This document shows positions 963 through 18,129 of a stretch of 64,000 bases of DNA, one piece after another. The notes below the pieces were generated by a model. The model searched no databases, was not told where the DNA came from, and worked only from the letters and a program-made list of their open reading frames with translations. The translations under genes and the position numbers were made by a program. The number at the start of each line of letters is the position of its first letter. Within the stretch, counting starts at the first letter, position 1. Origin of the DNA: Paenarthrobacter sp. AR 02 (GTDB lineage: Bacteria > Actinomycetota > Actinomycetes > Actinomycetales > Micrococcaceae); contig NZ_JAJUKH010000001.1 of assembly GCF_021538675.1 (NCBI RefSeq), forward strand, positions 1,085,462-1,149,461. The letters are read 5' to 3'.

Positions 963-2142
963 CGATGCCTCCCGGAACAACGGTTACGCGCCGTCCGGCC
1001 AGCTCCTCAGGGATATCGGCGTCGACGGCGGCCGTCACCAGCACCTGCTCGGCGCCGGCAACTATTGCTGCCAGTTTACGCCGGCGTTGAACATCAAGTT
1101 CGGCAAAGACGTCGTCCAGGATAAGGATCGGCGCGGTCCCTCCCGTACGTGAGTCGTCCAGCATGACGTAGTAGGAAGCAAGCCGCAGCGAGAGGCACAT
1201 GGACCAGGTCTCACCATGGGAGGCGTACCCCTTCGCGGGTGCTTGTCCCAACACGAGTTCCAGCTCGTCCCGGTGCGGCCCAACCAGTGAGATACCGCGT
1301 TCCAGTTCCTTTTTCCGCGACGCCGCGAAGGCCTGGATATATCGTTCGGTGAGATCGTCCACGGACAGCACCCGGAGGTCCTCGGCCGACGACGACGGTT
1401 CCGTTGCGCGATCCGCCGGACCGCCGTCGTCGTCCAGGATGTTCTGGATAGTTGAACGGTAGACGGCACCGGCTTCCTTGGAACCATCGGTCAGCTGCGC
1501 GTAAGCACTGTTGAGGTGCGGACGCAGCCGCTCTACGAGCTCAAGGCGGGCGTGCAGGAGTTCAGCACCCGCCCGCGCCATGTGCTGGTCCCAAACATCC
1601 AGGGTTGCTTCATGGCCCGCAGTGAACTTTCCTGTCCTTGCCGACTTGAGGAGGGCGTTGCGCTGCTTAAGGACGCGATCGTAATCGCTGCGTGTGGCAG
1701 CATGCCGCGGAACGAGGCTCACCAGAAGCTCATCAAGGAACCGGCGACGGTTCGAAGGATCACCCTTCACCAACGCCAGGTCCTCCGGAGCGAAAAGGAC
1801 TGTCTGGCAGATGCCCAGGATGTCCCGTGCCCGCACTGGATTACTGCGGTTGATGCGGCCACGGTTCGCACGGCCGGCATTGATTTCCAGCTCAATGACC
1901 GTGGATTGCTCACCACGGACAAGCCGCGCCCGGACCATGGCGCGCTCGGTGCCAAAGCGGAGCAGCGGGCCGTCGGTGCTCACACGGTGCGAACTCAGCG
2001 TGGCAAGGTACCCGATGGCCTCCATCAGGTTGGTCTTGCCGATTCCATTGGAACCCACCAGCACTGTCACACCCGGGCCAAGCTTCAGGTCAACCTGTGC
2101 ATAACTGCGGAAATCCGTCAGTGAAAGATGTTCGAGGTACAC
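949..2142 (-). CDS. recF: DNA replication and repair protein RecF
   Basis: This 397-aa SMC-like ATPase belongs to the RecFOR pathway, which loads RecA at single-strand gaps and stalled forks. The N-terminus (M-Y-L-E-H-L-S-L-T-D-F-R-S-Y) is typical of RecF. The Walker A motif G-S-N-G-I-G-K-T-N-L is near residue 33, the signature region is in the last third, and the Walker B segment I-L-I-L-D-D-V-F-A-E-L-D is near residue 345. The length is normal. It lies 23 bp downstream of gnd and overlaps the DUF721 gene, within the leftward origin gene set. Confidence 0.97.
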   Translation of the reverse strand: MYLEHLSLTDFRSYAQVDLKLGPGVTVLVGSNGIGKTNLMEAIGYLATLSSHRVSTDGPLLRFGTERAMVRARLVRGEQSTVIELEINAGRANRGRINRSNPVRARDILGICQTVLFAPEDLALVKGDPSNRRRFLDELLVSLVPRHAATRSDYDRVLKQRNALLKSARTGKFTAGHEATLDVWDQHMARAGAELLHARLELVERLRPHLNSAYAQLTDGSKEAGAVYRSTIQNILDDDGGPADRATEPSSSAEDLRVLSVDDLTERYIQAFAASRKKELERGISLVGPHRDELELVLGQAPAKGYASHGETWSMCLSLRLASYYVMLDDSRTGGTAPILILDDVFAELDVQRRRKLAAIVAGAEQVLVTAAVDADIPEELAGRRVTVVPGGIDGEG

Positions 2143-2165
2143 GCCGTTCGCAGGACTCCTGCGGC

Positions 2166-3050
<885 letters not shown>

Positions 3051-3098
3051 AGTGTGAACTCTTTTCTGGAATGTGGGTTGATGTGTCCGTGGTGTCTG

Positions 3099-4223
3099 CT
3101 AATTGGGCAGGCGGACCGGCATCACGAGGTACCGGTAGTCATCCTGGTCTTCACCATCGGCTTCCGCCTGGGCAGTAATCATGGCCGGCTTGGGAGCCGT
3201 GGTGAACGAGAAGCGAACGTACTTGGTTTCGATAACGCTCAGGCCCTCAACCAGGTAGTGCGGGTTGAACGCAACGGTGATGTCCTCACCGGAAAGCTGG
3301 GCTTCGAGCTCTTCCGAGGCCTGCGCGTCTTCGCCTGTTCCGGCGTCGAGGTTGAGCAGTCCCTGGGTAAAGGCGAGCCTTACGGGGGTGTTCCGTTCTG
3401 CAACGAGGGACACACGGCGAACGGCCTCGACAAGTTCCTGGGTCTGGACAGTCGCGTGGATCGGAGTGGAATCCGGGAACAGCGAACGGATCTTGGGGTA
3501 GTCCCCATCGACCAGCAGCGAAGTGGTGGTGCGTCCTCCGCTTTCGAATCCGATGAGCCTGCTGTCGTCGTCCGAGAGGGCCAGGTTGATGTCGCCGCTG
3601 CCACCGAGTGTCTTCGCTACTTCGTTCAGCGTTTTGGACTTAACCAGGGCGCTGGTGGAAATGCCGGGAGTTACGGGTTTCCAAGGGACTTCGCGCATGG
3701 CGAGCCGGTAACGGTCCGTGGCGAGGAGGGTGATGAGGTCATCTTCGATCTCCATCCGCACACCGGTCAGGATGGGGAGGGTGTCGTCCTTGCTGGCCGC
3801 GATGATGACCTGCGAAACAGCCTGGGCAAAGGCGTCCCCGGGAAGGGTGCCGCTGATCGCCGGCAGCGCCGGAAGGGCCGGGTACTCCGACTCGGGCATG
3901 GTGGCCAGGTGGAAGCTGCTTCGGCGGCAGGTGAGGGTGACTTTGCTTCCGTCTGTTTCAACCTCTACGGGCGCTGAGGGAAGGCTGCGGCAAATGTCGG
4001 CGAGCAGGCGTCCGGACACCAGGATGGTGCCCTCAACCGCGATGTCGGCAGGGATTTCCAAGCGCGCGGACGTCTCGTAATCGAAGCTCGAGAGGCTGAC
4101 TGTTCCCGCCTCGGCTTTGAGGAGGAGGCCGGAAAGCACAGGTACGGGCGGCCGCGGAGACAACGATCGCGCGGTCCATGTAACGGCTTCTGCCAGGACG
4201 TCGCGGTCGACTCTGAACTTCAC
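3099..4223 (-). CDS. dnaN: DNA polymerase III beta subunit (sliding clamp)
   Basis: This 374-aa beta clamp forms a dimeric ring that tethers the replicative polymerase to DNA. It starts M-K-F-R-V-D-R-D-V-L-A-E-A-V-T-W and ends with the clamp C-terminus Y-L-V-M-P-V-R-L-P-N, which resembles the usual M-P-x-R-L. Three repeated clamp domains fit the length. It is transcribed leftward from the far side of the dnaA-dnaN spacer that contains oriC DnaA boxes, and is followed by gnd after 48 bp. Confidence 0.98.
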   Translation of the reverse strand: MKFRVDRDVLAEAVTWTARSLSPRPPVPVLSGLLLKAEAGTVSLSSFDYETSARLEIPADIAVEGTILVSGRLLADICRSLPSAPVEVETDGSKVTLTCRRSSFHLATMPESEYPALPALPAISGTLPGDAFAQAVSQVIIAASKDDTLPILTGVRMEIEDDLITLLATDRYRLAMREVPWKPVTPGISTSALVKSKTLNEVAKTLGGSGDINLALSDDDSRLIGFESGGRTTTSLLVDGDYPKIRSLFPDSTPIHATVQTQELVEAVRRVSLVAERNTPVRLAFTQGLLNLDAGTGEDAQASEELEAQLSGEDITVAFNPHYLVEGLSVIETKYVRFSFTTAPKPAMITAQAEADGEDQDDYRYLVMPVRLPN

Positions 4224-4786: not shown

Positions 4787-6205
4787 TCAGGAGTCGCGCT
4801 GCTGCTGCTTGATGCGGTTGGTCAGTTCGGTGACTTGGTTGTAAATCACACGACGCTCAGCCATCAGCTCACGGATCTTGCGGTCCGCGTGGATCACTGT
4901 GGTGTGGTCGCGGCCGCCCAGCTCCTGGCCGATCTTGGGCAGGGACATGTCAGTCAGCTCCCGGCAGAGGTACATGGCGATCTGCCGGGCTGTCACCAGT
5001 GTCCGTGTACGGGACTTGCTGCAAAGCTCTTCCATGCTGAGCTTGAAATAGTCCGCTGTCTGGTCGAGGATCTGCTTCGCCGTGATTTCCTGGGCACCGT
5101 CATCCGTGATGAGGTCCTTGAGGACCATCTCGGCCAGGGCAACGTCCACCGGCTGGCGGTTGAGGCTCGCGAACGCAGTGACGCGGATGAGGGCGCCTTC
5201 AAGTTCGCGGATGTTGCTGGAAATCTTCGACGCGATGTACTCCAGTGCGTCATCCGGCGCTGACAGGCCCTCGCTGAGGCCCTTCTTGCGGAGGATGGCG
5301 ATACGGGTCTCAAGCTCCGGCGGCTGGATGTCCGTCAGCAGGCCCCACTCGAAACGGCTTGTCATGCGGTCTTCGAAGCCGGCCAGCATCTTGGGCGGCT
5401 GGTCGGAGGTGATAACCACCTGCTTGTTGGCGTTGTGCAGGGCGTTGAACGTGTGGAAGAACTCTTCCTGGGTACGGTCCTTGCCTGCCAGGAACTGGAT
5501 GTCGTCGATCAGCAGCACATCCACGTTGCGGTACGTGGTCTTGAAACTCGTGCCTTCGTCGTCGCGGATGGAGTTGATGAAGTCATTGGTGAACTCTTCG
5601 GAGTTCACGTAGCGGACGCGGATGCCACTGTAGAGACGGCGCGCATAGTGGCCGATTGCGTGCAACAGGTGGGTCTTGCCCAGTCCGGAGTCACCGTAGA
5701 TGAAGAGCGGGTTGTATGCCTTGGCCGGAGCTTCCGCGACGGCAACCGCGGCCGCATGGGCGAAGCGGTTGGAGGAGCCGATCACGAACGTGTCGAATAT
5801 GTATTTCGGGTTCAGGCGGCCGAACTCGTGCGATGTGCTCGGCGGAGTCGGCTGGGGCTTCGGCTCTGCAAAGTCCGGTACTGCGGAAAGCTCGACGGCG
5901 GGTTCCGGCTCTGCATGGACCGGCACCAGATCGGTGTCTACGTCGATTGCACAGCGGATGTCATCCGAAAAGACGCTCCGCAGGGCATCGTCGAGGGCAT
6001 CCTTGACTTGCGTTTGCAGGACTTCGCGGGTGAGCTCGTTGGGAACTGCCACCAGGAGGGTCGAACCTATGAGGCCTTGTGCCTGGGCCAGGATGACGAA
6101 ACCACGCTGACGGGGAGTGACCCGATCGTCCTGTTCCAGGAGGGTCAGCACCCTGCGCCAGGAACTTCCGACAGTGTTGGCGTGGTTGGCTTCGTCTACT
6201 GTCAT
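4787..6205 (-). CDS. dnaA: Chromosomal replication initiator protein DnaA
   Basis: This 472-aa AAA+ initiator binds DnaA boxes and melts oriC. Domain I covers roughly residues 1-90 and is followed by a short Pro/Glu-rich domain II. The AAA+ domain has Walker [10 protein letters not shown] near residue 172 and Walker [10 protein letters not shown] near 231. The C-terminal DNA-binding domain carries the DnaA signature [10 protein letters not shown]. An upstream in-frame TTG at 6208 gives one extra residue, but ATG 6205 has AGGA eight bases upstream and is preferred. DnaA boxes on both sides suggest autoregulation. Confidence 0.98.
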
Positions 6206-6208
6206 CAA

Positions 6209-6670
6209 TCAGTTCCTAAATACTTGCTTGCCGGCGTTGCTGGCAGCCGAAGTGTCTCCGGCGTTGCTTGTTCCGGGTGATAATCCACAGAGTTATGCAC
6301 AGCGGGTGGACAATGGGCTACTGAGCCACTCTAGGGGATGCAATCGCCAGAAGATAGCTGGGAAGTTGCCTGTGGATAATTACACCGTTGTGGTTCCTGA
6401 ATACGGCTTGTGAGCCACTTCATCCACAGGCTGCAAACAGGGTCTGGACACAGCTGTGGATACGTGTGCGGCAGGCTGCCGGTTTGACTGTGGGTCCCTT
6501 TTTGCCCTAACGTTGTGAAGTCCTTTGTGTCCGCTTTTGAGATCAGTTGTAACTCCGTACGTTCATCGTGCGGGAGGCAACGGCGGCGGCACATACAAAA
6601 CTTAGCGTCGGCCAGTTCTTCCCCTTTTTTGATCGGGTGGGCGCACCTTTGATCCACTGGAGTAACTAAC
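6209..6670. promoter_or_regulatory. dnaA-rpmH spacer with DnaA boxes
   Basis: This 462-bp divergent spacer separates dnaA from rpmH. It contains a perfect DnaA box at 6371-6379 (minus orientation) and the strong variant TTATGCACA at 6293-6301. One-mismatch boxes are at 6281-6289, 6420-6428 and 6455-6463. It should carry the dnaA promoter and the rpmH-rnpA promoter, and is either a second lobe of oriC or a DnaA autoregulatory zone. No gene is visible; short frames here are spurious. Confidence 0.85.
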
Positions 6671-6808
6671 GTGAGCAAGCGGACTTTTCAGCCGAATAAC
6701 CGCCGTCGGGCCAAGAAGCACGGCTTCCGCCTTCGTATGCGCACCCGTGCCGGCCGCGCCATCCTGGCTGCCCGTCGCGGCAAGGGCCGCGTCGAACTGT
6801 CGGCGTAA
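6671..6808 (+). CDS. rpmH: 50S ribosomal protein L34
   Basis: This 45-codon gene starts at GTG 6671 and stops at TAA 6806-6808. The product begins [20 protein letters not shown] and ends G-K-G-R-V-E-L-S-A, an unmistakable L34 sequence. L34 is a small, very basic protein of the large ribosomal subunit. It is the first gene on the rightward side of the origin and is followed by rnpA after 41 bp. Confidence 0.98.
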
Positions 6809-9955: not shown

Positions 9956-11008
9956 GTGGGCAGTAGTGAAACCTCCACGCAGCGGATCCCGCCGTTTATG
10001 TCTTTGGGTTCCGCGCGGGCAATGGCCACACCCTCTGCGTCCCTTCAATCCGCCATAGTGCGCCCTCATTCGGTTGAGAACGCCGTTTCACGTGAAACTG
10101 TCACAGATGGAGGGCGAAACGTCATGGATTCCATTGATGATTCCAGCCCCATTGCTCGCCAGCTGGCCAATGAAACGCGCCGGCGCGAGCGTCTTATTGG
10201 ACGCGAACTGCCTAAGCCCGAAGGAACCCGTATCTTCACGGTATCCAATCAAAAGGGTGGCGTTGGCAAGACCACAACCACAGTCAACATCGCAGCGGCC
10301 TTGGCCTCGGCAGGACTCAATGTCCTGGTCATCGATATCGACCCCCAGGGCAACGCCTCCACGGCGCTCGGCATTGAACACCATGCCGACGTCGACAGCA
10401 TCTATGACGTCCTGATCAACGACCTGCCCCTCAAGGATGTCGTGGCCCCGTGCCCGGACATCCCCAACCTCATCTGCGCCCCCGCCACAATTCACCTGGC
10501 CGGGGCCGAGATTGAGCTGGTCTCTTTGGTAGCTCGCGAGCAGCGCCTCCGCCGTGCCATCGATGTATACGCCAAGGAACGGGAAAAGAACGGTGAAGGT
10601 CGCCTCGACTTCATCTTTATCGACTGCCCTCCAAGCCTCGGCCTGCTGACAGTCAATGCATTCTGTGCTGCCAGTGAAGTGCTCATCCCGATCCAGTGCG
10701 AGTACTACGCCCTTGAGGGCTTGAGCCAGCTGCTCAAGAACATCGAAATGATCCAGAAGCACCTGAACGCCGACCTCGTCGTGTCCACCATCCTGTTGAC
10801 CATGTACGACGGACGCACCAACCTCGCCGCCCAGGTAGCTTCTGAGGTGCGACAGCACTTCCCCGAGCAAGTACTCAGTGCCGTGGTACCCCGGTCGGTC
10901 CGCATCTCCGAGGCTCCGAGTTATCAGCAGACAGTGATGACTTACGATCCTTCGTCGAGCGGCGCGTTGTCCTATATGGAAGCCGCCGCCGAAATCGCTG
11001 AACGCTAG
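9956..11008 (+). CDS. parA: Chromosome-partitioning ATPase ParA
   Basis: This 350-aa Walker-type ATPase binds DNA non-specifically and, with ParB, segregates the origin region. The deviant Walker A motif K-G-G-V-G-K-T-T is at residues 100-107, followed by D-I-D-P-Q-G-N-A-S and the F-I-D-C-P-P-S-L-G motif. The N-terminal 90 residues are an extension. It encodes V-S-R-E-T, which is the in-frame reading of a perfect parS site at 10085-10098. I use GTG 9956. ATG 10124, with GGAGGG ten bases upstream, would give a 294-aa protein and leave parS in the leader. Mycobacterial ParA also carries an S-R-E-T segment here, favouring the long form. Confidence 0.95.
   Translation: MGSSETSTQRIPPFMSLGSARAMATPSASLQSAIVRPHSVENAVSRETVTDGGRNVMDSIDDSSPIARQLANETRRRERLIGRELPKPEGTRIFTVSNQKGGVGKTTTTVNIAAALASAGLNVLVIDIDPQGNASTALGIEHHADVDSIYDVLINDLPLKDVVAPCPDIPNLICAPATIHLAGAEIELVSLVAREQRLRRAIDVYAKEREKNGEGRLDFIFIDCPPSLGLLTVNAFCAASEVLIPIQCEYYALEGLSQLLKNIEMIQKHLNADLVVSTILLTMYDGRTNLAAQVASEVRQHFPEQVLSAVVPRSVRISEAPSYQQTVMTYDPSSSGALSYMEAAAEIAER
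10085..10098. promoter_or_regulatory. parS: parS site inside parA
   Basis: A perfect 14-bp palindrome GTTTCACGTGAAAC, the ParB-binding core. It lies inside the N-terminal extension of parA, or in its leader if ATG 10124 is the true start. It could seed ParB loading and mediate autoregulation. Confidence 0.95.
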
Positions 11009-11074
11009 AATTCTTGAAACACTGCAACAGCCTGAGCCGGACCGTGCTTGGCTATCCATCGGAGGGATGAATCA

Positions 11075-12271
11075 ATGAGCGAAAAGCGAAGGGGCCTCGG
11101 CAGGGGTCTTGGGGCTCTCATTCCCAGCGCGCCTGGTGCCGCCCAGGGAAATGGTGCCGCAGCATCCCGTCCGGTGGACCTATTCTTTCCGGAGGCACGG
11201 AAGGCTGCAGAACCTGAGGCTGCCACCTCACACGCCGACGTACCCGTTGATGAGCCAAAAGCGTCCGGCGCCAGGTCTTCCGCCACAGCACGGACAAAGC
11301 CGGCTGCTAAGGCGACTTCGTCGTCAGCCAAGACTTCTCCCAGCAAGCCGGCTACGAAACGCGCAGCTGCTTCCGATGCCGAAGAGGTTGAAGAAAGCTC
11401 GACGGCGGACGCGCCGTCAGTTGCTGTCTCGTCGAACGTTGAGCTGGTAGAGGTTCCCGGTGCGCGTTTCGCCGAAATTCCGGTTGGCGACATTCATCCA
11501 AACCGCAAACAGCCCAGATCCGTCTTCGATGAGGACGACATGGCTGAGCTGGTTCACTCCGTCAAGGAAATAGGCGTCCTCCAGCCAATTGTCGTACGTA
11601 CTTCAACCGAAAAGGGTGGAGAACCGTATGAATTGGTTATGGGCGAGCGTCGTTGGCGTGCTGTGCAGGCCGCGGGACTCGAGACAATTCCTGCAATCGT
11701 TCGTGACACCACGGATGACGACCTTCTCCGCGATGCCCTACTCGAAAACCTGCACCGCAGCCAACTGAACCCGTTGGAAGAAGCGGCGGCCTACCAGCAA
11801 CTCCTTGAAGACTTCGGTACCACCCACGAACAGTTGGCAGATCGCATTGGCCGGTCCCGTCCCCAGGTCTCCAACACTCTCCGTCTGCTGAAGCTGCCCC
11901 CGCTTGTACAGCGTCGTGTTGCTGCCAGTGTTCTTTCTGCCGGCCACGCACGCGCCTTGCTGTCCCTTCCTGATGCAGCAGCAATGGAGCGCCTGGCGCA
12001 GAAGATCGTCGCGGAGGGAATGTCGGTACGTGCTACGGAAGAAGCCGTGGCGCTGTATCAGGACCCCGCCGCGCCAGCGAAGAATTCCATTCCCAAGCCA
12101 AATGCTCGCCACGAACGCTTGGATTACCTGGCTTCGTCGCTCTCGGATCGTTTGGACACGAACGTGAAGATTACTTTGGGTGCCCGCAAGGGTCGAGTCA
12201 GTATCGAATTTGCGAGTGTTGAAGATTTGAACCGAATTATGGATGTTCTGGGACCTGGATCTGAGGATTAG
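11075..12271 (+). CDS. parB: Chromosome-partitioning protein ParB
   Basis: This 398-aa CTP-dependent DNA clamp binds parS and spreads. It begins [17 protein letters not shown], the ParA-stimulating N-terminal motif. A long Ala/Lys/Ser linker (residues about 30-130) precedes the ParB/Srx domain, with P-N-R-K-Q-P-R and the CTP-binding G-E-R-R-W-R-A motif. The H-T-H domain includes [16 protein letters not shown], and the dimerisation domain is at the end. ATG 11075 is preferred over ATG 11048 because GGAGGG lies eight bases upstream and the family N-terminus starts there. Confidence 0.97.
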
Positions 12272-12291
12272 CACTGTGCCACCCAACTGAT

Positions 12292-12322
12292 GGGGTCTGC
12301 TCTTTGAGCAGGCCCCACTTTT
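12292..12322 (+). terminator. Terminator after parB
   Basis: GGGG-T-CTGCTC (12292-12302), loop TTT, then GAGCAG-G-CCCC (12306-12316), followed by ACTTTTG. It lies 20 bp past the parB stop, in the right place to end the parAB transcript. Confidence 0.85.
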
Positions 12323-12387
12323 GTTGAGTGCAGCTTGAGGCTCCGATTGCGTCTGCTGAGGGTCGCAGCAGGGCCTTGGAGGTTCTG

Positions 12388-12403
12388 TGTTTCACGTGAA
12401 ACA
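12388..12403. promoter_or_regulatory. parS: parS site
   Basis: Perfect 16-bp palindrome TGTTTCACGTGAAACA, about 120 bp past parB. Confidence 0.96.
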
Positions 12404-12719
12404 GGGGCCTTGAGAGCCTATTCACTGCGTCTGGGCCTCTGGCTAGCCATACATGTGGATGTGTCTTCGGGAGCTCGATATTGCCCGTGCCCAGTCTGAT
12501 TGGCTGGGATGGTATGTACTACAGCAGTCTCTGTCTTCCCCCCGCGGCCCTGCTTTTCGCAGCGGGACGCCGGTGGGCCACCTTTCGGTATTTTCACCTC
12601 TCTTTGGTCTCCGTTTTACTCGCTGATCGTTCGTACTCTTGACCTCAAACTACTCGCACCCTGCGTGGCCAGTATGTCCCCGGCGCTGGATAGTGAGTGG
12701 GAGTGCCAAATATCCGAGT

Positions 12720-12735
12720 TGTTTCACGTGAAACA
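12720..12735. promoter_or_regulatory. parS: parS site
   Basis: Perfect 16-bp palindrome TGTTTCACGTGAAACA, 332 bp from the previous site. Confidence 0.96.
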
Positions 12736-12958
12736 GGAAGATACACGCCCGTTGAAGCGGGGCTTCAACGAGCCCAACCATTGAACCAATGGCGCCCTCA
12801 AATCGAGCCGGCAGGTCTCCATATGTGGTCGGTCCCCCAGAGGGTAGGTAGGTGCCGAGGCAAGATGGCCATCGCAATGGCGGCTTCGCCCCTCCATCCG
12901 CGATAAAGACGGAGATGACCGTTCCGCCTGGAGCTGAGCCTGTGGAACTCATCGATGA

Positions 12959-12974
12959 TGTTTCACGTGAAACG
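12959..12974. promoter_or_regulatory. parS: parS site
   Basis: Perfect 14-bp core GTTTCACGTGAAAC at 12960-12973. The outermost pair is T/G rather than T/A. Confidence 0.95.
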
Positions 12975-13117
12975 GCCCTCTTCCAATTCGATTCTGGGTA
13001 AAGGGCCCGTTCGATATGCAGAAGCCCCTATATGGACCCAGCATTCCAGTATCGGCCCCCTATAACCTCGCTGCATTCCTTTTGGCGGCCATACGTTCTG
13101 CCGGGGCCGCTCGACAT

Positions 13118-13131
13118 GTTTCACGTCAAAC
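13118..13131. promoter_or_regulatory. Degenerate parS site
   Basis: GTTTCACGTCAAAC differs from the parS core at one position (G to C in the right half). It may bind ParB weakly or be a decayed site. Confidence 0.6.
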
Positions 13132-14369
13132 GCTGGCACTAGTCGACTATTTCGTGTTCGTTTAGGTCGTGTTTGTCCGAGTCGGCCTCGCTGCTGATAG
13201 GTCTTCAAGGAGAATCGGCCAGTCTCCAAGCCCGTCAAGGCTGCAGCGAATACGGTGCTCCAACGCTAGGTGGGCAGTCTTCGGCAATGTCCCCTAGGAG
13301 GGGTCAATCTGGCACGCAAGCCTTAGTGGGGCAAGCCGCTGCGTCTGTTCGCACCAGCTTCTCTTGTAAGGGTCACCAACACCACTGCATGTAGGGGCTT
13401 CCCGCTTTTGAGACCCGTGGGGGCGGACAGCACTGAGACCAAATGTGAGGGGCGCTCCGAAGGGACTATAGATGGGCAGAAGTGCACGGCCGGGAAGGCT
13501 GGGCATGATGTCCAAGAGTCGTCCAAGGGGCACCAGAGTCGCCGGGGGCTGCGTAGATGGAAGCAACGTAGACGACTCCGCGACGTGGCACTAAGGCATC
13601 AATCAAGGGCATTTCCGGTCTCGGCAGGTGAAAAAGATAGTTAGCTATTGAATCCCCACGCATCGGTGAAGTTCGAAGCTGAAAGCGGCTCGGTAGGACT
13701 GGCGCCGACGTAAAAGGCCCCAAGTTCGGGCGCTAGTCAGTGTAACGACTGTGGACTGCGTATGTGCCCGCATGAGGGGCACGCGGGGCCGGCGCCGTTC
13801 GAGGTCCGGGCAACTCAACGATTGAGCAACCGACTCTTCGGCCTTCGGATTAGAGTCGAGGGTGGGGATCTAAAGGGACTGAGGCGCCGTGGAGCCGATT
13901 GTGGTGCCCGTACCTGACAGATCTTGTTCGCCTCTCCAGCAGACCTCATGACTGCCTACCTATGAATGTGATACATCGCGGTTAGCCGCGTGTGCGTTTG
14001 ATCTGATGCTGGGGACGATGGCCTGCGAAGTGCAGCTTCTCGGTCCTGTGGGGCGTCGAGTAGCAATGACTCCCGTAGTGGAACCCTGAACGTGCCTGCT
14101 TATCCAGGCATGAGACCAAAATTCACCGTACCCCTGGCCGGACAGATCTGTCTGGCGAGGCCACTGCTCGTAGATTTCAAGCAACTAGCTGACGCTCCCC
14201 TGCCCTAGCCCACCGACCGATTGATCCGATGTTGGGTTCCGTTCCAGTCAGCATTCTTCTAACCGCACTGCCACCGTCAGGGGACCCTGAACCCACGGCC
14301 AGATGAGATGGCGTGCCCTAGAAGCTCAGTGCGGCAATCAAGTGCCCGGACCATGCTGGTCGACCGTCA

Positions 14370-14385
14370 TGTTTCACGTGAAACA
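14370..14385. promoter_or_regulatory. parS: parS site
   Basis: Perfect 16-bp palindrome TGTTTCACGTGAAACA, about 80 bp before the first ectopic DnaA-box cluster. Confidence 0.96.
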
Positions 14386-14443
14386 GTGGCTATGAGTGGT
14401 CGAAGTCTACGGCCAAAGAAGGTCAAACCGGGGAATACAGCTT

Positions 14444-14488
14444 GTGGAAAAGCCGGTGGATATCGCTGTGGATAACCATGGGGATAAC
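14444..14488. promoter_or_regulatory. Ectopic DnaA-box cluster 1
   Basis: A perfect reverse-strand DnaA box TGTGGATAA lies at 14467-14475. It is preceded by GTGGAAAAGCC (14444-14454) and a near-match GGTGGATAT, and followed by GGGGATAAC. The cluster is about 9.7 kb from the dnaA-dnaN spacer and is not next to any gene. It could titrate DnaA or be a fragment of an origin-like sequence; function is inferred only from the motifs. Confidence 0.6.
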
Positions 14489-14787
14489 TTACTCATTCAA
14501 GTGCAGCACTAGCAGCCCAGGAGCCTGGGCTCCGGGCGTTGACGTTAAACTCGCAGTGCGATTAGACCCGTACACTCGCGAGAACCGCGAAGTGCCCTTT
14601 TGCTGGACCAGTTGTTTCCCTACAGCGGTTCAAAATGTCCCAATTCCTATTGAATCTGCGGAATTCTGACTGAGACTCAGCCCCGCGACGGCGGCAGCGG
14701 AGGGTCGTCTGCTTCTCCTGGTACGAGGCGCTTTCCGCCAACGTCCAGCATGCGTTTCCTAGCATTCTGTGGGCAATCTCATGGGCG

Positions 14788-14819
14788 GTGGAAAAGCCTG
14801 TGGATAACCTTGTGAACAA
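14788..14819. promoter_or_regulatory. Ectopic DnaA-box cluster 2
   Basis: A second perfect DnaA box TGTGGATAA is at 14799-14807, followed by the near-match TGTGAACAA. It is preceded by the same GTGGAAAAGCC found in cluster 1, 344 bp away. The shared flank suggests that one cluster is a copy of the other or that both derive from a common element. Confidence 0.6.
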
Positions 14820-15465
14820 CTTCACCCTTGACGCAAACCTGCGAGGCCCCCGGTGCAGCTCCATAGCCTTTGAGAGAGCATAAGGCGAACGGACGTTCCG
14901 TTTCGAAGGCCCCGGCGCCTGGCTGCTTGAGAGACACTGTGCGCGACAAGGGGCTCACGTGAGACCGGATGTTAGTTCTCGCAATTGGTGCAAACGTTCC
15001 AGGTGCATCAATTCTCCACCTTCGAGGACGGATCCTTTGGGCCAAGATCGGAGCCTATTGATCGGATGTCTTGAGGGGTACAGAATTTGCCTTGAGTTCC
15101 TGCTCCAGGCCCCGGTGGCGGGCAGCGTATTTGGCTTCTGGCCGGTAGCACTGAAATCAGTCAGTAGCGAGGTGCGTGAACCGCTAACCGGTTTGCGTGG
15201 ACCTGATAGGGCGTTGTCCGTCGGTATGCGTTAGGGCGCAGCGCAGGTCCTGCAGGGCTCATGGCATGACTTTGCGGCAAGCCCCTATATGGAGAGGGAC
15301 CTCCTAAGCGGCCACGGTGTGAAGACAGATGCTCTAGAGTGGTGGTGCTCGGCGGAAGGTCTTACGCGGCCCGACCAAAGGAACCTTGCTCGGGGCCTAG
15401 CTCGGTAGCGGAGCAGCTGCCGGCTCTTCCTAGGCTGCACGTGCCATGCGCACTTGGGCTGTTCC

Positions 15466-15479
15466 GTTTCACGTGAAAC
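15466..15479. promoter_or_regulatory. parS: parS site
   Basis: Perfect 14-bp core GTTTCACGTGAAAC, about 1.1 kb from the previous site. Confidence 0.95.
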
Positions 15480-16467
15480 AGTCACATTATCGTCGCGTTC
15501 ATCACCTGACGGGAAGCCGTCTTGAGAGAAACAACGGGCATTTTCTGACCGGAAGACCTACGTTGGTCGACTGTAACTGGACTGCCTGGTGGACGGATCA
15601 CCAAGAACGAGCCATCGTGACTATTGTTCCCGGATGGCATGCCTGAGGGACCGACTTGCCGTCTAGGCTGGGAGGGCGTCCCGTGTGGTACCTGACCGGC
15701 CCCCATGGCTGCTGTGCATACCTGCTGAGAGCTGGCGTGACTGATTTTGGTAAGAAGGACGAATCGTGGAAGGACACGATGTTGATCTCCGAGCGCATGT
15801 TCGAAGGTGTTTAGTGGCTTCGAATTGGCGGTGATGCCAAAGAGTTGGTGGAGGATCGATGCGTCCGCTGCAATCCTTCCGGACCGTACCGACCGGAGCA
15901 GATCCGCTGATCCAACTTTCTCCCCTATATCTATTGTTGTGGACCTTCCGCCGCTGAGTACGTACCGCAGCTCTCCAGTCATGGGCACGGAGCCCGAAGC
16001 CGAGGGTCAAGGGCAAGAGGGCACACGACGCAGGGGTCTGCCTCCTGTGGCGGCATTCCGACGGTGCCCAAATCCGATGAGGCTTGCGAGTCAAGTGCAC
16101 TGGGGCCGTGTATGCCACGCCGGTGGTCCAGGAGCTGGAACTGTCGCGCAAGGCTCGACATCGCATCAGAAACTGCGAGAGCCGGCTGTAGTGGAGTCGG
16201 GCTCGGCCGCGGGAGCCGGCTATCAATGGAACGTCGGAGAACTGTGGCTACCGGCAAGGCCCGATGCAGCCGATGTACCGGAAAGGGGCTCACCTGAGTA
16301 CGGAACGACAACAGCTCCCTTCCCCCAGAGCTCCTTGTAGGTGACATGCACGATGCGTACCTTTGGGAGCTTTCCTGTTGCGCAAATGAGCTTTCGATAC
16401 ACGCAGGAGTACGGGGAGATCACCGTAGCTGCTCTGCGGAAGGCCCGCTGAAGCTTCACCAAGGGTC

Positions 16468-16483
16468 TGTTTCACGTGAAACA
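16468..16483. promoter_or_regulatory. parS: parS site
   Basis: Perfect 16-bp palindrome TGTTTCACGTGAAACA, about 1 kb from the previous site. Confidence 0.96.
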
Positions 16484-17173
16484 TGGATGTTTTACGGTGT
16501 TTTGTTCTTGGACGCCCGCCTGGAACGGAAGTGCTGATGCTCTGCGATGGTCTGTGAAGGGTGGGGAGGGCCAGGCAGCAGGTAAGTGCTGCGAGGGGTC
16601 AACAACCATCCAGGAGTAGGTTCACGGGCCAGCACTGTTTAGTGGGCGGCCTTGAGGTCAGGGCACATCCTGCCCATGTCTGCGGTAGGTGTGGTGTCTC
16701 GTGGGTGGGGGGTCCCTGGAGCCTTGCGGTTGCAGACCGAACAGTCTAAAAGAGTCACGTTGTACCGGAGGCGTGTAGGTCGTCGGATTCCCCTTCCGGT
16801 GTCTGACTCGTTCTGCGTGTCTCAACGCCTAGGCAGTGCTGAAGGAACACAAACGCCGAGAGTTGACCGAAGCCTCGCTGAGGCACTTGGTGATAGCAGA
16901 GTGACTCCACTGTCAGGGTGTTGTTGTTTCGAAGCAACGAGCGCGGATGCAGGGTTCCCAAATGCAGGAACCGGGCACTACTTCCTAGCTACCAACCACA
17001 AGACGCTGCTTAGTATGCTTGCCAGCGCGCTGGTCACCCTCTTCGCTGGTTCTTGGGTCACGTCGGCGGTATCCAGTCGACTCGAGTCGAATGCTTGAAA
17101 CAGGGTCTCGGGAGCACCGCCGGCGAGATCTGGCCCCGACGGGTTTTGCCCCGAGCCACGGATGGATGGATCG

Positions 17174-17187
17174 GTTTCACGTGAAAC
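17174..17187. promoter_or_regulatory. parS: parS site
   Basis: Perfect 14-bp core GTTTCACGTGAAAC, the last of the array and about 230 bp before the tandem repeats. Confidence 0.95.
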
Positions 17188-17403
17188 ATCCTTCGATGCC
17201 GAGGCCAACGGGCCGACGATCGCGAGATTGCCAGACTCGTATCGTTCTGCCACCAGCACTCTCAGCAATCCCCCACACGACCTACGCTAACCCTTGGTTG
17301 TGCCCACATCGGGTGCGTCAAACAGCAGAGAAGCGGAAGCAGAAGAAGTTGCCTCTGGGTCCACAGCGGTCATCACCCTCCAGTGGCGGCATCGCATCCT
17401 TGG

Positions 17404-17627
17404 GGGCCGGGATGTGAGCGAGCGCCAGGTTGAAGGGGCCGGGATGTGAGTGAGCGTCAGGTTGAAGGGGCCGGGATGTGAGCGAGCGTCGGGCTGAAGG
17501 GGCGGGGACGTGAGTGAGGGTTGGCGGGAAGGGGCGGGGATGTGAGCGAGCGTCGGGCTGAAGGGGCCGGGATGTGAGTGAGGGTTGGGTTGAAGGGGCT
17601 GGGATGTGAGTGAGGGTTGAGTTGCCC
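17404..17627. repeat. Seven 32-bp tandem repeats
   Basis: Seven consecutive 32-bp units begin at 17404, 17436, 17468, 17500, 17532, 17564 and 17596. Each starts with a variant of GGGCCGGGATGTGAGCGAGC and ends GTTGAAG-like. The last unit diverges at its end. Units vary at a few positions and have no spacers, so this is a minisatellite-type array and not CRISPR. A related array with the same unit length lies at 42782-42862. Confidence 0.95.
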
Positions 17628-17737
17628 CTACCCCAGTGAGCGGGAAGCCGCATTACCGTTCAGGAGCGCACCGGACGTCCCCACACGCACATAAGCCACC
17701 AATGCATCCTTGGAAGGTTCATTTCCAAGAAAAGAAC

Positions 17738-17782
17738 AAAAAGCCGGCGGCTCCCGCTCCGTGAGGAGCAGAAACCGCCGGC
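17738..17782 (-). terminator. Terminator of trxB-trxA
   Basis: Arms GCCGGCGG (17743-17750) and CCGCCGGC (17775-17782) enclose a further GCTCC/GGAGC pairing. On the minus strand the stem is followed by TTTTT. It lies 21 bp past the trxA stop. Confidence 0.9.
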
Positions 17783-17802
17783 CTTAGACCTTGAGCGGAA
17801 GG

Positions 17803-18129
17803 TTAGGACAGTACGTCCGAGAATTCCTTTTCGAAGAACTGCTTCGGCTTGGCACCGATGACGGTGTTCTTCACTTCTCCCCCGCTGAACAGGTAGACGG
17901 CAGGGATGGAAGTGATGCCGTACTCAGCTGCGATGGCAGGGTTGTCGTCAACGTTGAGTTTCACGACCTCAACCTTGTCGCTGTACTCGACCGAGATCTC
18001 GTCGAGGATGGGGCCGAGCTTGCGGCAGGGGCCACACCACTCTGCCCAGAAGTCCACGATGACCGGCTTCTCGGAAGCCAGGACATCCGTGCTGAAGCTT
18101 GCGTCAGTTACGTCTTTTGCGTTGCTCAT
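17803..18129 (-). CDS. trxA: Thioredoxin
   Basis: This 108-aa cytoplasmic thiol-disulfide reductant is of standard thioredoxin length. The active site W-A-E-W-C-G-P-C-R-K is near residues 29-38, and the cis-proline motif T-S-I-P-A-V is near residue 75. It lies 23 bp downstream of trxB and ends just before a strong terminator, so the two form a trxB-trxA operon. Thioredoxin reductase next door recycles it. Confidence 0.98.
   Translation of the reverse strand: MSNAKDVTDASFSTDVLASEKPVIVDFWAEWCGPCRKLGPILDEISVEYSDKVEVVKLNVDDNPAIAAEYGITSIPAVYLFSGGEVKNTVIGAKPKQFFEKEFSDVLS

Follow-up and report, generated by a model that had tools for sequence, protein, structure and literature searches.

The interval between parB and trxA

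The window analysed here, a stretch of 64,000 nucleotides from Paenarthrobacter sp. AR 02 (contig NZ_JAJUKH010000001.1), contains between the genes parB and trxA a non-coding interval of 5.5 kb (12272..17802, no strand assigned) that is rich in parS sites and carries two arrays of DnaA boxes at a near-fixed distance from each other. The interval shows no coding signal and has a counterpart in all measurable genomes of the same genus. It is interpreted below as a candidate regional centromere with an embedded DnaA-box element. parB (11048..12271, plus strand; its start codon is uncertain, the ATG at 11075 being likelier by eye) converges with trxA (17803..18129, minus strand; identified by reading and synteny), which forms the right border of the interval. 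Both ends are closed by terminator-like hairpins, at 12291..12317 (plus strand) 3' of parB and at 17740..17785 (minus strand, ~20 pairs, in a stretch that folds with a z-score of -6.9) 3' of trxA. According to a simple hairpin rule such structures are present at the parB end in 60/92 and at the trxA end in 59/92 of the genomes compared, and in 4/92 random gap stretches.

These 92 genomes are those in which trxA was in reach, among a total of 95 made up of the window and the parB-trxA stretches fetched from 94 other same-genus genomes (L071, L159 and L170 were dropped). All 92 have a long parB-trxA gap of 3917-9357 bp (median 5942 bp, 5th-95th percentile 4220-7277 bp), holding 6-11 perfect parS sites whose positions vary among species.

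In the window seven perfect copies of parS (GTTTCACGTGAAAC) lie in the interval, at 12389..12402 (parS 1), 12721..12734 (parS 2), 12960..12973 (parS 3), 14371..14384 (parS 5), 15466..15479 (parS 6), 16469..16482 (parS 7) and 17174..17187 (parS 8), together with a single-mismatch copy at 13118..13131 (parS 4); no strand is assigned to these sites. parS 5 adjoins the DnaA-box arrays and is found 84 bp before the first of them, array A. At up to two mismatches the window has 9 matches to parS, compared to 0.21 expected from shuffles. Further perfect copies are located at 10085, near the 5' end of parA, and ~235 kb away (G000:C11:860128), so that 7 of the 9 perfect parS sites of this 4.4-Mb genome fall inside the gap. 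The parS palindromes are thus found near parAB and oriC and above chance, as in a chromosomal ParABS centromere. A search of the same genus revealed 5-14 perfect parS per genome in 197 of 198 genomes, the sole genome without any being 63% complete, and parB was found in 61/61, 197/197 and 193/193 genomes in three genome searches. Same-genus gaps are also enriched in a variant parS word, GTTCCACGTGAA, seen in 9 of 34 genomes.

No gene could be recognized in the interval. Its 32 open reading frames (ORFs) of at least 60 amino acids have codon log-odds of at most 0.05 (median -0.23). The training set consisted of the 37 window ORFs of at least 200 amino acids, 33 of which score at least 0.2 (lowest -0.0), and 179 spurious ORFs within these training genes, taken as a control, had a median of -0.32, a 95th percentile of 0.18 and a maximum of 0.36. 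The longest gap ORF has 187 amino acids, a length matched in 107 of 200 dinucleotide shuffles, and the next largest stretch of the window without a scoring ORF is 1258 bp. A Pfam search with ten of the longer gap ORFs yielded no family above cut-off, one weak match being to HTH_Tnp_Tc5 (E 0.1, 13 bits vs 22.2), and no Rfam family reached threshold in window positions 1-30000. No sigma-70 promoter was predicted in 12000-18000 (1.9 expected in shuffles), in a scan that actinobacterial promoters may escape. When reading frames were compared between the 92 gaps, a similar frame in a diverged species was recognized for 405 of 9452 frames. Most of these coincide with the DnaA arrays (313) or with the final 420 bp ahead of trxA (75); another 8 fall at parS sites, and among the remaining 9 the longest are transposase-like inserts. 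Codon scoring, shuffles, Pfam and this cross-species frame comparison revealed nothing that would call for a hidden protein in the gap. A previous sequence-only reading of this DNA had listed seven perfect parS sites plus one near-match, and had seen no plausible gene across the 5.5 kb. The same sites were recovered here, its starts being 0-1 base lower, and coding-potential scoring, ORF lengths and family searches all agreed with the absence of a gene.

Paired DnaA-box arrays

With parS masked, an unbiased k-mer search returned DnaA boxes (TTATCCACA and neighbouring words) as the top over-represented words in 33 of 34 same-genus gaps. In the window they form two arrays, both on the minus strand. 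Array A (14443..14487) has boxes at 14443, 14455, 14467 (a perfect TTATCCACA) and 14479, in one orientation and with a pitch of 12 bp. Array B (14787..14819), with boxes at 14787, 14799 (perfect) and 14811, follows at an in-register distance of 332 bp. Each array typically comprises some three to four boxes with this 12-bp pitch. A search for array pairs that permitted spacings of 200-2200 bp found paired arrays in 92/92 gaps. The best triple scored 19-26 out of 27, whereas neither the 276 dinucleotide shuffles nor the opposite strand exceeded 18. The second array scored 18-25 out of 27 vs at most 16 in shuffles. Under a stricter pair rule 90 of the 92 gaps (not L109 and L143) and none of the 276 shuffles were retained. 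Nearly all array boxes share one direction (484/490), and the density of DnaA boxes is 19 per kb in the arrays vs 0.07 elsewhere.

The distance between the arrays in register is 319-404 bp in 91/92 genomes (mean 349, sd 22, commonest 332-333), small spacing steps being ambiguous owing to the choice of 12-bp register. A spacing of 300-410 bp, seen in these 91, occurs in 8% of shuffles and 13% of cases on the opposite strand. The arrays are situated at 0.32-0.61 of the gap length (median 0.43). The only perfect match to GTGGATA-N4-TGTGGATAA in the window's genome lies in array A. Allowing up to two mismatches, seven matches were found genome-wide, four of them in the arrays, two beside dnaA and one elsewhere. 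As in known DnaA-box clusters, several boxes are found in non-coding DNA outside oriC, at a conserved position.

In 91/92 genomes array A has a parS site with at most one mismatch close to its start, either 60-110 bp ahead of it or 110-155 bp behind it, vs 12.8 expected from random anchors, these offset windows having been chosen after the distances were seen. The adjacent parS lies after array A in 64 genomes, before it in 22, on both sides in 5 and on neither side in 1. In a quick ParB-gene tree five changes explain this placement, with the 'before' and 'both' genomes in one clade of 45 rows that also includes 17 'after' genomes and the window. The adjacent parS has shifted place, yet it stays near array A. 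Judged by sequence, a parS within spreading distance of an initiator-binding site is also the arrangement of the rctA/parS2 type of Vibrio cholerae.

Divergence and spacing within the gap

The 14 closest species pairs agree in 97-100% of parS letters and in 85-100% of DnaA-box letters, compared to 50-91% identity over the remaining gap. In 13 of these pairs the non-site gap sequence diverges more than the fourfold sites of parB and trxB. Outside the sites the gap sequence evolves largely without visible constraint. The spacer between the arrays (14488..14786, no strand assigned) diverges like the rest of the gap, its identity being 55-93%, but it contains few insertions or deletions (indels). 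In the 12 closest pairs minus L139/L143, which was left out for its insert, spacer indel columns are fewer than those outside in 11/11 pairs (0-1.1% in ten and 4.3% in one, vs 1.6-38%, the highest outside figure stemming from an insert). The difference in array spacing across 65 related pairs has a median of 2 bp (0.6%), compared to 48 bp (13%) for inter-parS intervals of 200-600 bp (n=186), pairs for this comparison being filtered for equal parS number and similar order.

Across the genus, the middle of the spacer is distinguished by A/T tracts in phase with the DNA helix. Weakly conserved T columns are found 132-144 bp before array B, where no parS was found. Between 190 and 90 bp ahead of array B, T tracts return at intervals of 10-11, 20-22 and 30-32 bp, and TTT pairs at lag 10 number 56 vs 1.4 in controls. 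The spectrum has its maximum at 10.25-10.5 bp, where power is ~7-fold that in other windows from these gaps. This power depends on position: 0.56 at the midpoint, ~0.10 at 120 bp on either side and 0.04-0.06 beyond 400 bp. With parS masked, the midpoint periodicity beats 95% of own-gap windows in 67/91 genomes, and against dinucleotide shuffles of the central 120-bp stretch the 95% level is exceeded in 39/91, vs 8/182 random windows. The window densest in A/T is found a median of 1 bp from the midpoint (quartiles -10/+9, within a search range of about -50 to +50), and the block between the arrays is somewhat richer in A/T (0.47 A+T vs 0.40 elsewhere). In the window the densest 60 bp of A/T tracts are at 14595..14654 (no strand assigned), near the spacer midpoint (14637). 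Phased A/T tracts are a classic cause of intrinsic DNA curvature, and the genus-wide midpoint tracts, with their helical period of 10.5 bp as in bent DNA, could bend the spacer. The reading that only distance is kept between the arrays was ruled out by this phased block.

Occurrence within and outside the genus

Comparison with relatives strongly supported the sequence-only reading in its proposal of a dedicated non-coding, parS-rich ParB platform, since gap and parS array recur in 92/92 measurable genomes and most of the sequence is without visible constraint. That reading was incomplete, having overlooked the two DnaA-box arrays beside one of the parS sites. Its comparison with a point-array centromere is not apt: a point centromere is a short element with a fixed number and order of sites, and here 6-11 perfect sites, variable in number and position among species, are spread over 3.9-9.4 kb. 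Its general statement that parS sites are scattered among genes in most bacteria holds only in part, 9 of 10 parS sites of Corynebacterium glutamicum being intergenic within 35 kb according to the accessible part of the report (PMC7083940).

Paired arrays are also present in L159 and L170, two of the three genomes dropped for having no trxA in reach. In the third, L071 (G046), parB is followed by three parS sites and then by long ORFs, possibly a large insertion or rearrangement. Named loci with this kind of gap belong to Arthrobacter and Pseudarthrobacter. Both arrays were found at cut-off in 15 of the 16 such loci with at least 89% ParB identity (L184 has one array), several of these loci coinciding with records of fetched genomes. 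L197, labelled Paenarthrobacter and 83% identical in ParB, lacks arrays in its 3.2-kb gap, which contains 6 parS sites. The length of the interval in the rest of the family varies from 60 bp to >9 kb; some of these intervals contain long ORFs, others parS-rich DNA. Arrays also occur in the groups g7 and g19 of the family (see below), and the Sinomonas locus L194 has a weak array pair. In the other genera examined no arrays were found at the cut-off used, even in parS-rich gaps. In another family, the Actinomyces loci L232 and L244 have at least 12 parS sites in a parB-trxA interval of 7.6-8 kb.

A composite pattern, TGTGGATAA 88-118 bp before a parS core, was found in 4 of 346 genomes of the order, namely in 3 of the 9 same-genus genomes drawn and in G589 of another family. 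The pattern is insensitive: a near-identical form matches 49/92 within the genus, and it cannot match the window's own layout. In G589, the loci L280 and L284 have TGTGGATAA boxes ~100 bp from parS.

Long ORFs interrupt the gap in a few genomes. L065, with a gap of 9.4 kb, carries two between its first two parS sites (gap positions 400-1638 and 2093-3184) and L143 carries one between the DnaA arrays (2255-3457), all transposase-like by eye. L124 has a long ORF at 5560-6777, a frame of which resembles an L065 frame at 24%. The inserts of L143, L065 and L124 are natural spacing mutants.

Relation to known systems

The statements on other bacteria in this section follow the accessible parts of the papers cited. 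The datA locus of Escherichia coli is likewise a cluster of DnaA boxes in non-coding DNA outside oriC, and its boxes flank a bend made by integration host factor (IHF). These boxes are required, their spacing is important, and high transcription at the site inhibits datA (PMC4585315; PMC10950094); the parB-trxA interval is gene-free and closed by terminator-like hairpins. One difference is that in datA the bender is IHF at its own site; here the candidate is the phased A/T block. DnaA-box clusters near oriC of Bacillus subtilis and Streptomyces coelicolor repress untimely initiation (PMC4585315). In the accessible text the clusters of these three species are not described as embedded in a parS array, while the cluster reported here lies within the putative ParB zone. 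Same-direction boxes of Thermotoga oligomerise DnaA best at a separation of 2 bp (PMC10316083), compared to 3 bp here.

For a DnaA element inside a ParB zone the nearest precedents, by analogy, would be DnaA at parS of Caulobacter and ParB2 spreading in V. cholerae. The parS region of Caulobacter crescentus is bound by DnaA (Mera et al. 2014, as reviewed in PMC6399470) and also combines DnaA boxes with a centromere. It differs from the present element, which comprises two multi-box arrays of 12-bp pitch at a near-fixed distance in a long gene-free region and which has been characterized at the level of sequence. On chromosome II of V. cholerae a centromere site (parS2-B) likewise adjoins an initiator-binding control site near the origin (rctA), and ParB2 spreads into this inhibitory site and modulates it (PMC3688505). 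In that system the initiator is RctB, which acts at 39-mers, and rctA is beside the origin, unlike the DnaA-type paired arrays described here. C. glutamicum has about ten parS sites near oriC, nearly all intergenic and on one side of oriC, and its ParB loads SMC (PMC7083940). Those ten sites are distributed over 35 kb, 73 kb from oriC, whereas in the present genus 6-11 perfect sites are gathered in one gene-free stretch beside parB, together with DnaA arrays. The locus is a combination of known kinds, a ParABS centromere and a DnaA-box control cluster, and not a new category. No report of the element was found among open-licence papers, searched largely by titles and the beginnings of abstracts.

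Proposed function and alternative explanations

It is proposed, at about even odds, that the interval serves as a regional centromere for ParB and that the array-bend-array DnaA element embedded in it, similar in layout to datA, couples replication initiation to segregation. ParB would load at the 6-12 parS sites of the gene-free stretch and occupy the DNA between them, in a region that is kept clear of genes and has terminator-like hairpins at both ends. The control element would consist of the two head-to-tail DnaA-box arrays with the phased A/T block at their midpoint and one parS next to them. The arrays are separated by ~332 bp, in some genomes by as much as ~404 bp, the steps being close to 12 bp. 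DnaA may assemble on both arrays, and if the central tracts do bend the DNA the two assemblies would meet. The array pair would then jointly sequester or inactivate DnaA in the vicinity of oriC, the way datA does with IHF as the bender. Since the element lies within the ParB zone, the loading or sliding of ParB would alter the amount of DnaA on it, and initiation at the presumed oriC, ~10 kb away beside dnaA, would thereby be tied to the state of the centromere.

A more far-reaching version is offered tentatively and is considered rather doubtful. In this version the conserved information of the centromere would be its protein sites, distances and bend, ~5 kb of otherwise free DNA being kept as space for ParB. 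Its core would be a DnaA hairpin, two filaments ~332 bp apart at near-fixed distance joined over an intrinsically curved apex and switched by ParB sliding, and the centromere would license the next round of replication.

Several observations weigh against the proposed coupling element. The boxes were deduced from the canonical motif, which is likewise present beside dnaA in this genome, and array B is weaker than array A. In L143 the insert places the arrays 1851 bp apart, so that exact spacing is not absolutely required there; in L062 only a two-mismatch parS is nearby; and in L071 no trxA or DnaA box was found within 12 kb downstream of parB. In the groups g7 and g19 of the family two arrays were found at cut-off in 11/15 loci, one in 3/15 and none in 1/15 (L261), their spacing is wider (~356-456 bp), and central periodicity reaches the 5% level in 5/11. 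Within the genus, 52/91 genomes fail to beat 95% of the shuffles of their own central 120 bp, indicating that part of the periodic signal is A/T richness, and no significant central periodicity is seen in the window taken alone (rank 0.17-0.18 vs own-gap windows and 0.52 vs shuffles). Helical phasing of the arrays to parS is not clear, the coherence R at a period of 10.5 being 0.60 for array A and 0.23 for array B; R is higher at period 12 (0.71 and 0.65), which indicates that the array-parS grid reflects the box pitch. In the pair L114/L116 the gap evolves more slowly than fourfold sites (0.185 vs 0.207 and 0.224), and divergence faster than synonymous is a tentative reading, since codon usage may constrain the fourfold sites of parB and trxB and alignments at ~50-60% identity are loose. 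The species pairs overlap and are not independent, so that the p-value for spacing is indicative only. The direction of coupling, with ParB controlling the DnaA element rather than the reverse, is presumed.

The same anatomy might serve segregation instead of initiation. DnaA bound to the arrays could act on the centromere, releasing the ParB complex or starting its movement, in line with Caulobacter, where DnaA is reported to bind at parS and to play a part in the movement of parS (PMC6399470). The close association of arrays and parS in 91/92 genomes supports such a trigger, but taken alone it leaves the two arrays of near-fixed spacing and the phased central block unexplained; the trigger is regarded as unlikely. 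The few inter-array indels, the phased tracts at the midpoint and the placement of the arrays in the middle of the gap would suit an architectural element in which two DnaA assemblies over a central bend form a loop or roadblocks that shape ParB sliding or SMC loading, initiation not being the target. Initiator-binding sites are reported to be natural roadblocks to ParB2 spreading in V. cholerae (PMC3688505). The central parS, however, is located between the arrays in most species; in 22 genomes, the window among them, it is found only outside. The architectural role is considered unlikely.

Far less probable is a plain ParB platform, as in the sequence-only reading, on which the DnaA boxes are of little importance. 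parS-rich gaps without arrays at cut-off do occur in other genera of the family (L276 with 9 parS in 3.8 kb and L104 with 10 parS in 2.5 kb), but such a platform is difficult to reconcile with arrays kept in 92/92 genomes at near-fixed spacing while the surrounding sequence was lost. A cryptic or second replication origin, suggested by the clustered same-orientation DnaA boxes and the somewhat A/T-richer block between them, is highly improbable. The strongly AT-rich unwinding element that accompanies DnaA boxes in an oriC was not found at the arrays: the highest A+T in 50 bp is 0.62 in the window's gap vs 0.72 in its dnaA-dnaN region, and around the element it has a median of 0.60 and a maximum of 0.68 in the 92 genomes. 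Moreover, gene directions diverge at dnaA and not at the gap, and the GC-skew minimum, determined in the window only, is at 3.0 kb and not at 14.5 kb; gene direction and skew together place oriC beside dnaA. Hardly any credence is given to a hidden gene, an RNA or decayed genes. Some long ORFs are present, as happens by chance, but codon signal is absent, ORF lengths are shuffle-like, neither Pfam nor Rfam gave a match (RNA covariation was not tested), divergence is unconstrained, and cross-species frame similarity is almost wholly confined to known sites and the trxA end.

Should the proposed coupling element hold, its interest would lie in the coupling of replication initiation and segregation, a question that is open in bacteria outside a few models. 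A compact element in all measurable genomes of a large soil genus interlocks apparent initiator sites with centromere sites, and ~90 species provide a natural experiment on which bases and distances matter. The combination of common substitutions, rare indels between the arrays and phased tracts midway is unusually direct evidence for selection on DNA geometry, and the coupling question can be tested by small edits.

Other sequence features of the interval

Two repeats were observed besides parS and the DnaA boxes. The word AAGCCCCTATATGGA has two exact copies in the gap, at 13022-13036 and 15279-15293. Near the trxA terminator, at 17403-17614, a tandem repeat with a unit of 32 nt (or 64 nt) is present in 6.6 copies, with matches in L060 and L062.

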